A DNA stretch of 64,000 bases from Sphingomonas phyllosphaerae 5.2 (lineage in GTDB: Bacteria > Pseudomonadota > Alphaproteobacteria > Sphingomonadales > Sphingomonadaceae). The stretch covers positions 3,134,501 to 3,198,500 of the forward strand of contig NZ_ATTI01000001.1 of NCBI RefSeq assembly GCF_000419605.1, written 5' to 3'. The translations under genes and the position numbers were made by a program. Positions 7,971 through 12,365 of this stretch are shown here, in pieces (within the stretch, counting starts at the first letter, position 1; every line of letters starts with the position of its first letter). The notes under the pieces are model-generated. The model was not told the DNA's origin. It made no database searches and was given only the letters and a program-made list of their open reading frames with translations.

Positions 7971-8765
7971 TTATGCCGGAACGGTGCTTTCATCGAAGAA
8001 CAATGCCTGGCTGATCGCCGCCTTTACCGTCGAGCGCTGGAATGGCTTGGTGATCAGGAACGTGGGCTCCGGCCGCTCGCCGGTAAGGAGCCGCTCCGGG
8101 AAGGCGGTGATGAAGATCACGGGTACGTTGAATTCCGCCAGGATGTCCTTGACCGCATCGATGCCCGAGCTGTCATCGGCAAGCTGGATGTCGGCGAGCA
8201 CCAGCCCCGGCCGATCTTCCATCGCCAGCGCGACCGCCTCGTCGCGCGTCACCGCCACGCCGGTGACCTCATGCCCCAGATCGCGAACGATCGACTCGAT
8301 GTCCATCGCGATGATCGGCTCGTCTTCGATGATCAGCACGCGCGCACGGGTCTGGTTCTCGATCTCGGCCAGCGCCTCGGCGACCAGCACGTCCACTTCG
8401 GCCGTATCGACCTCGATCAGATACGCCGCGTCCTCGGGCGTGAAACCCTCCATCGCCGTCAGAAGCAGCGCCTGACGCGACAGCGGCGTCATCCGCGACA
8501 GCCGCGCACGTGCCACGGCCTCCTGATCCTCGGCCGGCATCTCGTCGGCGGTCTCGTCGAAATTGGCCGAGTTCCAGATCGCCTGGAACGTCCGATACAG
8601 GCCGAGCCGCGGATCGACGTCGCGCGGAAACTGGTCCGGCGCCGCCACGATCGCTTCCAGCGTGGCGCGCACGTAACGGTCGCCCTGCGCCTGGCTGCCC
8701 GTCAGCGCACGACCATAGCGGCGCAGGAACGGAAGATGCGGCGCGAGTTGTTGTCCGAGCGACAT
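7971..8765 (-). CDS. phyR: General stress response anti-anti-sigma response regulator PhyR
   Basis: 264 residues. Residues 1-135 are a sigma-like domain (SLGQQLAPHLPFLRRYGRAL, TFQAIWNSANFDE) and 141-255 a receiver with E147/D148, phospho-acceptor D192 in ADIQL, T220 and K240 in FLITKPF. Phosphorylation exposes the sigma-like domain, which captures NepR and so frees EcfG. The ATG at 8765 has an AGGGAGG ribosome site about 12 bases upstream. It is transcribed away from nepR-phyP across a 265-bp gap holding an EcfG-type promoter that could serve both directions. Confidence 0.96.
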   Translation of the reverse strand: MSLGQQLAPHLPFLRRYGRALTGSQAQGDRYVRATLEAIVAAPDQFPRDVDPRLGLYRTFQAIWNSANFDETADEMPAEDQEAVARARLSRMTPLSRQALLLTAMEGFTPEDAAYLIEVDTAEVDVLVAEALAEIENQTRARVLIIEDEPIIAMDIESIVRDLGHEVTGVAVTRDEAVALAMEDRPGLVLADIQLADDSSGIDAVKDILAEFNVPVIFITAFPERLLTGERPEPTFLITKPFQRSTVKAAISQALFFDESTVPA

Positions 8766-8888
8766 GTGTAGAAAACCCTCCCTGCGACCGACGGACCCAC
8801 GCCGCGGCCGCGAAACCGATACGTTCGTGGACGCGAGATCCGGCCGCAGATGAAAGCCCGCTACCGGCGAAATTCGTCGCACGGGCAT

Positions 8889-8915
8889 GGAACCATCGAC
8901 GTCAGTTTTGGTTTC
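8889..8915 (+). promoter_or_regulatory. EcfG-type promoter for nepR-phyP, near-palindromic and possibly bidirectional
   Basis: GGAAC at 8889-8893, a 16-base spacer, then GGTT at 8910-8913, close to the EcfG consensus GGAAC-N16/17-CGTT. Read on the minus strand the same block is GAAACC-N15-GGTTCC, again resembling the -35/-10 pair and pointing at phyR. Predicted leaders are about 110 bases to nepR and 125 to phyR. This would give EcfG autoregulation of its own switch. Confidence 0.7.
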
Positions 8916-9030
8916 ATCGGCCATACGTGCATTACGCGCTCGTCCGGTTTGGGCGTCCGGTCCGGGGTCGGCTGCCGGGTCTTTCGACCCATGCTGTCGA
9001 TATTGATCGGGTTGTCTTGGGGGGTTTACG

Positions 9031-9189
9031 TTGACGTCGGATAAGGAAGCGCCTGAAAAGCCTAAGAAAGGCACCGCGGCGCACTCGAAGAATCGCGATA
9101 TGGGATCGGCGTTGCGTTCCGTCTATCAGAAGACTGTCGAGGAAACCGTTCCCGACGATCTCCTGTCGCTGCTCGGCAAGCTAGACTGA
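9031..9189 (+). CDS. nepR: Anti-sigma factor NepR
   Basis: 52 residues starting with TTG at 9031, six bases after a GGGGGG ribosome site; the only in-frame ATG is internal. The N-terminus is charged and disordered (Lys/Glu rich). The C-terminal half carries the NepR core: DMGSALRSVYQKTVEE followed by VPDDLLSLLGKLD. NepR holds EcfG inactive until phosphorylated PhyR binds it. The stop is 6 bases before the phyP GTG, so the two form an operon, while ecfG lies elsewhere in the locus. Confidence 0.93.
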   Translation: MTSDKEAPEKPKKGTAAHSKNRDMGSALRSVYQKTVEETVPDDLLSLLGKLD

Positions 9190-9195
9190 CGCGGC

Positions 9196-10788
9196 GTGAC
9201 GGACCCTCCCGTCACTGACGCCCCCCGGCCTGCCGCGGGGCGTATGGACGTATTTACGCGCTGGCCGACGGGCGCCAAGCTGTTCCTCATCCTCAGCGTC
9301 GCGCTGTTGCCGCTGGCGTTGATCGCGATCTTCGCGACGCTGCGCGTGACTCAGATCGCAGATACCGAACTCCGCTCGCACCTGCGCGTCGCCGCTTCCG
9401 AGGCAAGCCGCGCGATCGCGATCGAGCTTGTCGGCGACATGACGGCGTTGCGCGTCGCGGTCGACGCGCTCACCGCCGATCGCGGCGATGCGCCGAGCTG
9501 CGCGCGCGCCCAGGGCGTCTTCGCACAGCAATCCGCCGCCGGAACCGGCTTCGTCATTCTCGACCGGCGCGGCCGCGCGATCTGCGGAGAGCCTTTCCCC
9601 GGCGCGGCGGTGTTCGCGCGGCAATCTCCCACCGACGCGGTAAGCGCGCGGATCGTTGAAGGCCGCGGATTGATGCTGCGCTTCGCCGGCCGAAACGACG
9701 GCCTGACGGCAGCGGCCTATTTTCCCGCGCCGTTCCTCGCGCAGATCGGACACCCGAGCGGCTTCGCGCCTGATTACGGACAGGCGCTGTCGATGGGCGA
9801 CGAGCGGCTCGAGCTCGACCCCCTCGATCGCCAGACCGCGCTGGAACGGCGCGAAAGCCTGCGCAGCGAATTGGGCATTGCGGGACTAGTCCTCGACATG
9901 CAGGTGCGCAGCGCCCCGATCGGCTCGCCGCTGCTGATCGCGCTCACCCTGCCGCTACTGATGTGGGCGGCGGCGGCGGCGATCAGCTGGTTCGTGGTCG
10001 ACCGGCTGTTGATCGCGCCGCTACGCGCGCTGCGCGGCAGCATCGCGGCCTATGCCCCCGGCGACCAGCCGGATCCCGCGATGCTCCGGGCGTTGCCCGC
10101 ACAGGAAATCCGCGATCTGGGTGACACGTTCCGGGCGCTCAGCCGCACCGTCGCGATCCACGAGGCCGGGCTGGCAGACGGGCTGATGCGTCAGACCAAG
10201 CTGACGCGCGAAGTGCATCACCGCGTCAAGAACAACCTTCAGGTTATCTCCAGCCTCATCAACTTCCATGCCCGCGGCGCACGCAGCAGCGAAGCCACGC
10301 AAGCCTATGCCTCGATCCAGCGCCGCGTCGATGCGCTCGCGGTCGTCCACCGCTACCATTATGCGGAAATGGAGGAGAACCGCGGCGTCGGGCTTCGCGC
10401 GGTGCTGGGCGAACTGGCGTCGAGCATTCGCGCCACCGCACCGGAAGGGACGCGCATCGGGATCGCGCTCGATATCGATCCTTATTACGTCACGCAGGAC
10501 GTGGCGGTGGCGGTGGCGTTCCTGGTCACCGAACTCGTCGAGCTGGCGATGACCTGTGCGCCGGAGTCGCAGATCCGCATGACGCTGAAGGAGAGCGCCG
10601 ACCCGCAACGCGCGACGCTGCGCCTATCGTCCCGCGCGCTCGTCGACAGCGATCCGCTTCGCGACGGGCTGAAGCATCGCTACGGCCGCGTAATCGAGGG
10701 ACTGACTCGCCAGTTGCGCTCGACCTTGCAGCACGATCCACTGACCGGCGCCTACGAGATTTCGATCGCGACAACCGGGCGCGAGTAA
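9196..10788 (+). CDS. phyP: PhyP-type membrane sensor of the HisKA_2 family with a degenerate ATPase domain
   Basis: 530 residues from GTG 9196. Transmembrane helices at about 28-50 and 245-270 enclose a periplasmic sensor region; a HAMP-like linker follows, then a HisKA_2 dimerisation domain with EVHHRVKNNLQ (H341/H342). The C-terminal ATPase-like part lacks the usual N-box (LVELAMTC where NALKH-like residues are expected) and no DxGxG box is visible. This fits what is known of sphingomonad PhyP, which sits by phyR and acts to dephosphorylate PhyR. The symbol rests on position, architecture and the missing kinase motifs. Confidence 0.82.
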   Translation: MTDPPVTDAPRPAAGRMDVFTRWPTGAKLFLILSVALLPLALIAIFATLRVTQIADTELRSHLRVAASEASRAIAIELVGDMTALRVAVDALTADRGDAPSCARAQGVFAQQSAAGTGFVILDRRGRAICGEPFPGAAVFARQSPTDAVSARIVEGRGLMLRFAGRNDGLTAAAYFPAPFLAQIGHPSGFAPDYGQALSMGDERLELDPLDRQTALERRESLRSELGIAGLVLDMQVRSAPIGSPLLIALTLPLLMWAAAAAISWFVVDRLLIAPLRALRGSIAAYAPGDQPDPAMLRALPAQEIRDLGDTFRALSRTVAIHEAGLADGLMRQTKLTREVHHRVKNNLQVISSLINFHARGARSSEATQAYASIQRRVDALAVVHRYHYAEMEENRGVGLRAVLGELASSIRATAPEGTRIGIALDIDPYYVTQDVAVAVAFLVTELVELAMTCAPESQIRMTLKESADPQRATLRLSSRALVDSDPLRDGLKHRYGRVIEGLTRQLRSTLQHDPLTGAYEISIATTGRE

Positions 10789-10825: not shown

Positions 10826-10850
10826 GGAACCTGGTGATACTCGCCTCGTT
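10826..10850 (+). promoter_or_regulatory. Perfect EcfG-type promoter of a short RNA
   Basis: GGAAC at 10826-10830, a spacer of exactly 16 bases, and CGTT at 10847-10850. It lies 38 bases after the phyP stop and points away from it. The predicted start near 10857 is followed by a strong terminator ending at 10964, so the promoter appears dedicated to a short transcript rather than to the entericidin gene further on. Confidence 0.8.
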
Positions 10851-10856
10851 AAGTCC

Positions 10857-10964
10857 TTCGGATAGCGACTATACGCCCCCCCGCTTTCGCTATCCAAGTC
10901 ATAGGCCCGAAGGCGCTCACCCCTCCCCCCCCCCCGGTGACGCTTTCGGGCCTTTTCCTTTTTT
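10857..10964 (+). ncRNA. gsrN: Candidate EcfG-dependent small RNA, GsrN-like
   Basis: A transcript of about 108 nt bounded by the perfect EcfG promoter and a Rho-independent terminator. Hairpin 1 has a perfect 9-bp stem (GGATAGCGA 10860-10868 with TCGCTATCC 10887-10895) and an 18-base loop containing a run of seven C. Hairpin 2 is the terminator, with a 14-base loop of nearly all C. No convincing ORF is inside. In Caulobacter the sRNA GsrN is made by the EcfG-type sigma factor, lies beside the GSR genes and uses a C-rich loop to pair with targets such as katG. Position, promoter and loop match; start site and targets are unproven. Confidence 0.72.
10903..10964 (+). terminator. Strong Rho-independent terminator of the short RNA
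   Basis: AGGCCCGAAGGCG-CTCACC (10903-10921) pairs with GGTGACGCTTTCGGGCCT (10936-10953), about 17 bp with one bulge, around a C-only loop apart from one T. It is followed by TTTTCCTTTTTT. This should stop nearly all transcription before the entericidin gene. Confidence 0.88.
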
Positions 10965-11059
10965 CCGCCATTCCTTGATCCACGGATCGCTTGCTCCGCC
11001 TGAGGAACGAAGTGTCTGCGCCGCGCATTGTCCGCGCAGATTTGCAGGAGACGGGTTCG

Positions 11060-11591: not shown

Positions 11592-12365
11592 TTACTCCGC
11601 GGTCACCACGTCTTCACGGGCGCGTCGCCGCTCGGTGAACCAGATACCGATGATCGCAGCCTCGTAGAGGATCACCAACGGAATCGCGAGCAACAGCTGC
11701 GAGCCGACGTCCGGCGGAGTCAGCACAGCCGCAATCGCGAACGCGCCGACGATGGCATAGCGCCGCGCACCGATCAGCTGCTTGCGGGTCACGATCCCGC
11801 CACGCTCCAGCAGCATCAACAGCACCGGCAGCAGGAACGCCGCGCCGAAGCCGAACAGGAACTGCATGACGAAGCTGAGGTAATTGCCGATCGCGGGCAG
11901 CGCCTGTTGCTGCACGCCGCCGATCATCCCCGAATAACCGAGCAGGAAGTGCAGGGCCATCGGGATCGCGATATAATAGGCCATCGACGCGCCCATCAGG
12001 AACAACACCGGGGTCGCGAGCAGGAACGGCAGCAGTGCGCGACGCTCCTTCCGGTACAAGCCGGGCGCGATGAACTGCCACAACTGGTTCGCGATCACCG
12101 GGAACGAGATCATCGTCGCCGAGAAGAACGCGACCTTCACCTGGACGAAGAACGCTTCGAATACCTGCGTGTAGATGACCGTCTTCTGCCCGGCATGCAG
12201 CAACGGCTGCACCAGGAACGCGAAGATATCCTCCGCGAAATACCAGCACACGAAGAACGACAGCAGCACCGCGACGATACAATAGAGCAGCCGCCGCCGC
12301 AGTTCGAGCAGATGGTCGAGTAGCGGCGCGCGCGAATCTTCCAGTTCGTCGACGATCTCGGTCAC
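11592..12365 (-). CDS. tatC: Sec-independent protein translocase subunit TatC
   Basis: 257 residues with six hydrophobic helices. The N-terminus has LLDHLLELRRRLL and the first periplasmic loop ends with the conserved FxxPGLYRKERR type motif (FIAPGLYRKER), where the twin-arginine signal is bound. It is the core receptor of the Tat translocon for folded proteins, including the Rieske protein encoded at 18610. The start overlaps the tatB stop by 4 bases. Confidence 0.96.
   Translation of the reverse strand: MTEIVDELEDSRAPLLDHLLELRRRLLYCIVAVLLSFFVCWYFAEDIFAFLVQPLLHAGQKTVIYTQVFEAFFVQVKVAFFSATMISFPVIANQLWQFIAPGLYRKERRALLPFLLATPVLFLMGASMAYYIAIPMALHFLLGYSGMIGGVQQQALPAIGNYLSFVMQFLFGFGAAFLLPVLLMLLERGGIVTRKQLIGARRYAIVGAFAIAAVLTPPDVGSQLLLAIPLVILYEAAIIGIWFTERRRAREDVVTAE

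Follow-up and report, generated by a model that had tools for sequence, protein, structure and literature searches.

A predicted small RNA gene with C-rich loops behind an EcfG-type promoter at the phyR-nepR-phyP locus of Sphingomonas and its relatives

The window, the whole stretch of 64,000 nucleotides of Sphingomonas phyllosphaerae 5.2 that was analyzed, carries genes of the general stress response (GSR), followed by an EcfG-type promoter and a predicted small RNA gene. The features are given with their Pfam domains; phyP was renamed phyT in S. melonis (PMC5898713).

6983 to 7756, minus strand: sigma factor gene, taken as ecfG because it is placed at the phyR locus; start codon uncertain (PF04542, PF08281)
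7971 to 9074, minus strand: phyR response regulator; start codon uncertain (PF22029, PF22233, PF00072)
9031 to 9189, plus strand: nepR anti-sigma factor; start codon uncertain (PF18557)
9196 to 10788, plus strand: phyP/phyT histidine-kinase-like phosphotransferase, the upstream neighbor (PF07568, PF07536)
10826 to 10850, plus strand: EcfG-type promoter GGAAC-N16-CGTT (GGAAC at 10826-10830, 16 bases, CGTT at 10847-10850)
10857 to 10964, plus strand: small RNA gene, predicted at about 108 nt with ends inferred from the promoter and the T-run
10860 to 10895, plus strand: hairpin 1 (stem 10860-10868/10887-10895, loop 10869-10886) with C7 at 10876-10882 as the proposed seed
10904 to 10964, plus strand: hairpin 2 and T-run, the predicted terminator and a possible second seed, with a C-rich loop (CCT C11, 10922-10935)
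11060 to 11194, plus strand: entericidin-like lipoprotein gene, the downstream neighbor (PF08085)
11592 to 12365, minus strand: tatC, the convergent neighbor (PF00902)

The sequence bore out both the GGAAC-N16-CGTT motif that had been claimed at 10826-10850 and its distance from phyP, which ends at 10788 with GGAAC 38 bases on. The combined pattern GGAAC-N16/17-NGTT-N8/38-C6 occurred three times in the genome and not once in the reversed control. Folding of the predicted RNA gave -46.6 kcal/mol (z -6.92), a stability reached by none of 200 shuffles, in agreement with the two-hairpin transcript of about 108 nt of the original prediction. In hairpin 1, GGATAGCGA (10860-10868) pairs with TCGCTATCC (10887-10895) around a loop that reads UAUACGCCCCCCCGCUUUC here and is an almost invariant UUUUGCCCCCCCGCUCUC-type loop in relatives. 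In hairpin 2, 10904-10921 pairs with 10936-10952 with one bulged C, and TTTTCCTTTTTT follows. A terminator-like pattern was found at 10933-10950, and the predicted terminator is supported, with a terminator-like 3' hairpin and a T-run after it; T-runs are imperfect in many relatives. Of the C-rich loops that had been described, the seven C of loop 1 are present, and the count of twelve C in fourteen for loop 2 has to be corrected to thirteen C and one T.

A 145-base query including the promoter matched 149 of the 151 genomes of the genus (E 1e-4), most matches beginning inside or after the promoter; the two genomes without a match are 83-84% complete. At the best 30 genus loci, which were read individually, GGAAC-N16-NGTT lay upstream without exception (25 with CGTT), and the 16-base spacer varied in sequence at a fixed spacing. 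A frame with the HRVKNNL kinase motif also lay upstream at all 30, ending 50-123 bases before the aligned transcript. In a 34-sequence alignment, both sides changed in 20 of 26 pairs, including 5 of 9 in the stem of hairpin 1 and 14 of 15 in the main stem of hairpin 2. Paired cells amounted to 96.3% (99.3% in the hairpin 1 stem), compared with 88.3% after shuffling and 30-45% after sliding, and none of 500 shuffles reached any of five covariation measures. The structure was derived from the same 34 sequences, which favors it; the gap to the slides is large. Covariation thereby supports the predicted folds of both hairpins. Stem and promoter were both found conserved in relatives, the comparison on which the original prediction had been staked. 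Identity was 0.933 in loop 1 and 0.925 and 0.938 in its stem arms, compared with 0.637 in the linker and 0.587 in the tail, which both drift. Hairpin 1 with its loop is better conserved than hairpin 2, and the conserved flanks of loop 1 reach beyond C7.

Searches beyond the genus used two covariance models. R1, which covers the transcript without the promoter, matched 54 of 149 family genomes and 35 of 91 genera (E 0.01). Its 30 best family loci, picked by transcript alone and 27 of them outside the genus, all carried GGAAC-N16/17-NGTT, and 28 had the kinase motif upstream. R2, built from the 34 sequences, scored 95.4 bits on the window RNA itself (10857-10966) and matched 71 of the 149 family genomes (E 0.1). 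At weaker R2/R1 loci the promoter was found in 24 of 39; the other 15 had no GGAAC promoter at the expected place and resemble coding sequence or other hairpins, one of them (L076) with a GCAAC-type match farther off. The best promoter-less match reached E 4.5e-7, and true carriers are therefore fewer than the tally. Order-wide, R2 matched 60 of 197 genomes (E 0.01), and three of four further family loci obtained in this way had the promoter. The fourth (L257, genome G642) is a strong R2 match (61 bits, E 6.4e-14) in which the promoter reads GAAAC-N16-AGTT and the C-run of loop 1 is down to C4; it may be a copy of the RNA in decay. Class-wide, R1 matched 4 of 289 genomes, two of them genus members, and a scan of the loci in the remaining two (L061, L062) revealed no promoter. 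A pattern search of 50 R2-poor genomes matched in 30, with a reversed-control match in 11; reading one locus per genome, 30 in all, gave just two that resemble the RNA, L134 and L155. No Rfam family matched in the window at its gathering score. Taken together, a real RNA gene under an EcfG-type promoter is very likely, one that is widespread in the family and was missed in many genera by R1 and R2.

Two groups of hairpins from these searches were set apart. The R2 matches in the seven f145 genomes of the order were rejected as another RNA, the best match in each having no EcfG-type promoter at the expected place; this RNA (L248-L254, around positions 500-600 of each, RNA strand) consists of TAGCTCCCTTGATCTGACTG followed by a hairpin with a CCCCC loop, with AT-rich sequence upstream. 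Hairpins with C-rich loops, such as CTCCCCCTCCCCC, were also seen at L083, L087, L088 and L089 without an EcfG promoter. Since such hairpins occur without the promoter, loop 2 may reflect no more than a way of building terminators, and terminators with C loops may be more generally used in the family.

Loop and neighborhood counts were taken from a list of 83 loci, which was picked for the promoter, so that promoter counts within it are not evidence; L031-L033 (two duplicates; L031 is not one) and promoter-less loci were left out of it. The C-run of loop 1 was exactly seven in 59 of 81 loci (L134 and L155 left out) and six to eight in 78; the longest C-run of loop 2 ranged from 3 to 17, and CCTCC occurred in the loop 2 region of 59. 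The gene usually lies between phyP/phyT and the entericidin gene or tatC: by tblastn, phyP was upstream in 63 of 82 loci (L090 dropped by a stricter filter), convergent tatC was downstream in 66 and neither was found in 6, and a similar small entericidin-like ORF lay downstream in 62 of 83. The RNA often stays beside tatC where phyP was not found upstream, and RNA and promoter are kept at loci without tblastn phyP within about 1.4 kb upstream (e.g. L064, L066, L072, L077). Second copies behind GGAAC-N16-NGTT are located elsewhere in two genomes (L071 in G160, L079 in G155). Among 40 R2-poor genomes, phyP-like matches were found in 8, four of which were inspected downstream; in G175 (L156), a natural absence was seen, with no hairpin RNA between phyP and the entericidin gene, which has an EcfG-like promoter of its own. 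Judged from sequence and conservation, EcfG-RNA polymerase would transcribe the RNA from GGAAC-N16-CGTT, and the gene very likely encodes a genuine EcfG-driven sRNA.

GsrN of Caulobacter crescentus was the proposed counterpart. According to the available part of its description (PMC5869019), GsrN shares with the RNA an EcfG/SigT promoter, which lies directly upstream here as well (10826-10850), a length of about 100 nt and a 3' terminator; its 5' C-rich loop holds six C, compared with seven here, and gsrN homologues usually lie near GSR genes, as here. In GsrN the 5' structure includes an inner hairpin, the linker is long and the terminator has a short loop; in the RNA here a single 5' C loop is followed by a short linker and a terminator with a C loop, and the stems are different; no inner hairpin was found beside its 5' C loop, and its second C-rich loop has no equivalent in GsrN. 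A 15-base piece of the GsrN loop, taken from a published interaction table, was found with an EcfG promoter in front in 23 named records, 21 of them with Caulobacterales names. A GsrN covariance model (R3) was built from 15 Caulobacterales sequences, and L119, which is unlike GsrN beyond the loop, was left out of its alignment (A3). R3 scored 101-128 bits on three GsrN loci; at the window RNA it gave only a 9.1-bit match on the opposite strand, with no same-strand match, and among 18 other sphingomonad loci it gave one weak overlapping match (L002, 21.8 bits, E 0.0018). Conversely, R2 matched at none of the 23 gsrN positions. Weak R2 matches were seen away from gsrN in Brevundimonas records (L117:6188-6271, 24.3 bits; L124:7747-7833, 22.4 bits).

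The G-rich katG leader targeted by GsrN was likewise looked for. The leader of the own katG was free of G4 runs between -220 and +90, counted from the first in-frame ATG. In 29 katG genes read from 30 loci, G4 was never found within -40 to +20 of that ATG; it occurred somewhere in -220 to +90 in 13, at no common place, these positions being counted from the ATG and not from transcript 5' ends, so that distant sites are possible in relatives. GTCGGGG, the published Caulobacter katG site, was found in one of the 29.

A true orthologue of GsrN, too far diverged to be detected and likewise activating katG or similar mRNAs, would account for the shared sigma factor type, size, 3' terminator and GSR-locus position, for the run of six to seven C between G in a 5' hairpin (GACGCCCCCCGACTT vs ACGCCCCCCCGC) and for the weak R3 match at L002. 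We regard it as unlikely, given the failed detection in both directions, the different fold and the katG leaders. The reading as a GsrN-type sRNA therefore holds for the EcfG-type promoter, the GSR-locus position, the C-rich 5' loop, the terminator-like 3' hairpin and the conservation; identity with GsrN is not supported, because covariance cross-detection fails bar the one weak overlap, the RNA folds differently and G4 is missing from the own katG leader. What can be said is that the mode of action may be GsrN-like: the designs are alike, and the molecules are not demonstrably related. The same paper, in the part available, limits blastn homologues of GsrN to Caulobacteraceae and uses promoter, place and partly transcription to predict GsrN-like RNAs elsewhere in the Alphaproteobacteria. 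Like the RNA here, these have an EcfG site, lie near GSR genes and expose a C-rich loop, a likeness by description; no apparent gsrN-like gene is given there for Erythrobacter litoralis (PMC5869019).

Other C-loop RNAs of Alphaproteobacteria offer a second origin, namely that the RNA is a sphingomonad branch of the alpha-r14 (NfeR1, RF02344) anti-Shine-Dalgarno sRNAs that was brought under EcfG control. Both RNAs carry C-rich, anti-Shine-Dalgarno-like loops on successive hairpins, the last being the terminator, and the CCTCC of the loop 2 region fits such a seed. Matches to RF02344 on the RNA strand scored 21.5 bits for the window, 35.7 for L066 and 31.5 for L072, all below the gathering score of 58.8, and only 2 of 20 searched loci matched at E 3; some diverged members resemble alpha-r14/NfeR1 at sub-threshold scores. 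In the part of PMC10746234 available, alpha-r14 is described with three hairpins, each with CCUCCUCCC, and the NfeR1 promoter as a sigma-70 promoter controlled by LsrB/NtrC. The RNA here has two hairpins, C7 and an EcfG-type promoter, and CCUCCUCCC is absent from the window RNA; such a descent appears quite unlikely. The alpha-r8 siblings SisA-D, as far as described in the accessible part of PMC12559287, also combine a CCUCCC-type seed with a terminator in an alphaproteobacterium, and differ in a single-stranded UUUCCUCCCU seed and unrelated promoters.

Pairing was calculated at 251 gene starts in 464 kb (the window and L194-L213) with a cut-off of -12 kcal/mol. Loop 1 paired with 148 of 251 starts compared with 157 of 251 gene interiors, showing no excess at starts, and loop 2 with 100 compared with 70, a slight edge at starts. 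The suggestion that C-rich loops pair with Shine-Dalgarno regions is thus slightly favored for loop 2 and not for loop 1. G6 words are about 15 times rarer in the 464 kb (both strands) than base composition predicts (97 vs about 1428, a comparison made with no codon-aware control), and the C7 loop could therefore be selective. The genome holds 21 GCGGGGGGG words; one is the antisense of the RNA itself, and the remaining 20 all fall outside clear leaders. At one site (L230), a short doubtful ORF starts 95 bases on. TonB-receptor genes were picked as a class once it was known from the literature that loss of ecfG raises receptor-linked and metal-transport genes. The genome holds 71 TonB-receptor plug matches, of which 30 were read. 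At -12 kcal/mol, loop 1 paired with 21 of these 30 starts compared with 13 interiors (Fisher p 0.17 against other starts) and loop 2 with 18 compared with 5 (p 0.03, uncorrected), making TonB-receptor leaders a weak lead as candidate targets. The clearest single C7-loop match seen was at a TonB-receptor-type gene (L284), where GGGGGGG directly precedes the ATG.

The lack of loop 1 enrichment at gene starts would also suit a decoy, in which C7 sequesters either a G-rich small RNA or some RNA-binding protein under stress and leaves mRNA starts alone. The near-invariant loop with conserved flanks beyond C7 fits this as well, and a sponge sRNA, CrfA acting against SisA-D, is a precedent from Caulobacter in the part of PMC12559287 available. 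No candidate partner came up incidentally, and we hold a decoy to be very unlikely. That the sequence merely forms the phyP terminator and 3' untranslated region and does not act in trans, as its position directly downstream on the same strand and its terminator-like last hairpin might suggest, is highly improbable in view of its own promoter with fixed spacing, the better conservation of hairpin 1 and its loop, and the occurrence of RNA and promoter at loci without upstream phyP and as second copies elsewhere.

The best explanation, and in our judgment the probable one, is a stand-alone EcfG-dependent sRNA gene of the GSR whose C7 loop pairs with G-rich sites and acts mainly by repression. 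Once PhyR frees EcfG from NepR, EcfG-RNA polymerase would transcribe the RNA from GGAAC-N16-CGTT. The transcript of about 108 nt would fold into a 5' hairpin presenting the UUUUGCCCCCCCGCUCUC-type loop and, at the 3' end, a terminator hairpin whose loop is C-rich. Trans-regulation through the C-rich loops is the best reading, and base pairing by them is the likely means; C7 would meet G-rich sites most likely at translation starts. Pairing may mainly lower translation of the targets, an effect towards which we lean only slightly, and EcfG would thereby gain a repressing arm. The terminator loop, often with CCUCC, could serve as another anti-Shine-Dalgarno seed of lower specificity.

For the general stress response of Alphaproteobacteria, Sphingomonas melonis Fr1 serves as a model. 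In the part of PMC6599016 available, 33 genes rise in this strain without ecfG and 46 more do so after stress, which its authors ascribe, as a suggestion, to sigma competition. A conserved EcfG-driven sRNA beside phyT offers a direct alternative to sigma competition for such apparent EcfG-dependent repression. It would also extend EcfG-driven C-loop RNAs to the sphingomonads, for which Erythrobacter litoralis was the one representative in the GsrN study, and it raises the question of shared descent versus repeated origin of these RNAs. A possible and tentative answer is that C-loop sRNAs were recruited to the EcfG regulon more than once and that the RNA of Sphingomonadaceae, unrelated to GsrN and mostly fixed at the phyT-entericidin-tatC locus, is a post-transcriptional repressing arm. 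If separate recruitment is true, the RNA would explain a share of the genes with raised levels in ecfG mutants, among them perhaps some of those behind the 71 TonB-receptor plug matches. Small-RNA words do not occur in the main text of PMC6599016 and PMC5898713 and occur in that of PMC7083833 only within a cited title. In the literature on stress and sRNAs in Sphingomonas and Sphingomonadales, a scope that mostly leaves out subscription papers, no title or abstract opening names the RNA.

Downstream of the RNA gene, GGAAC-N17-CATT occurs at window 11004-11029, upstream of the entericidin gene, and is likely a second EcfG-type promoter. In S. melonis, the genes listed as regulated by EcfG include a 'predicted small secreted protein' (#1442) that has a GGAAC...CATT motif.
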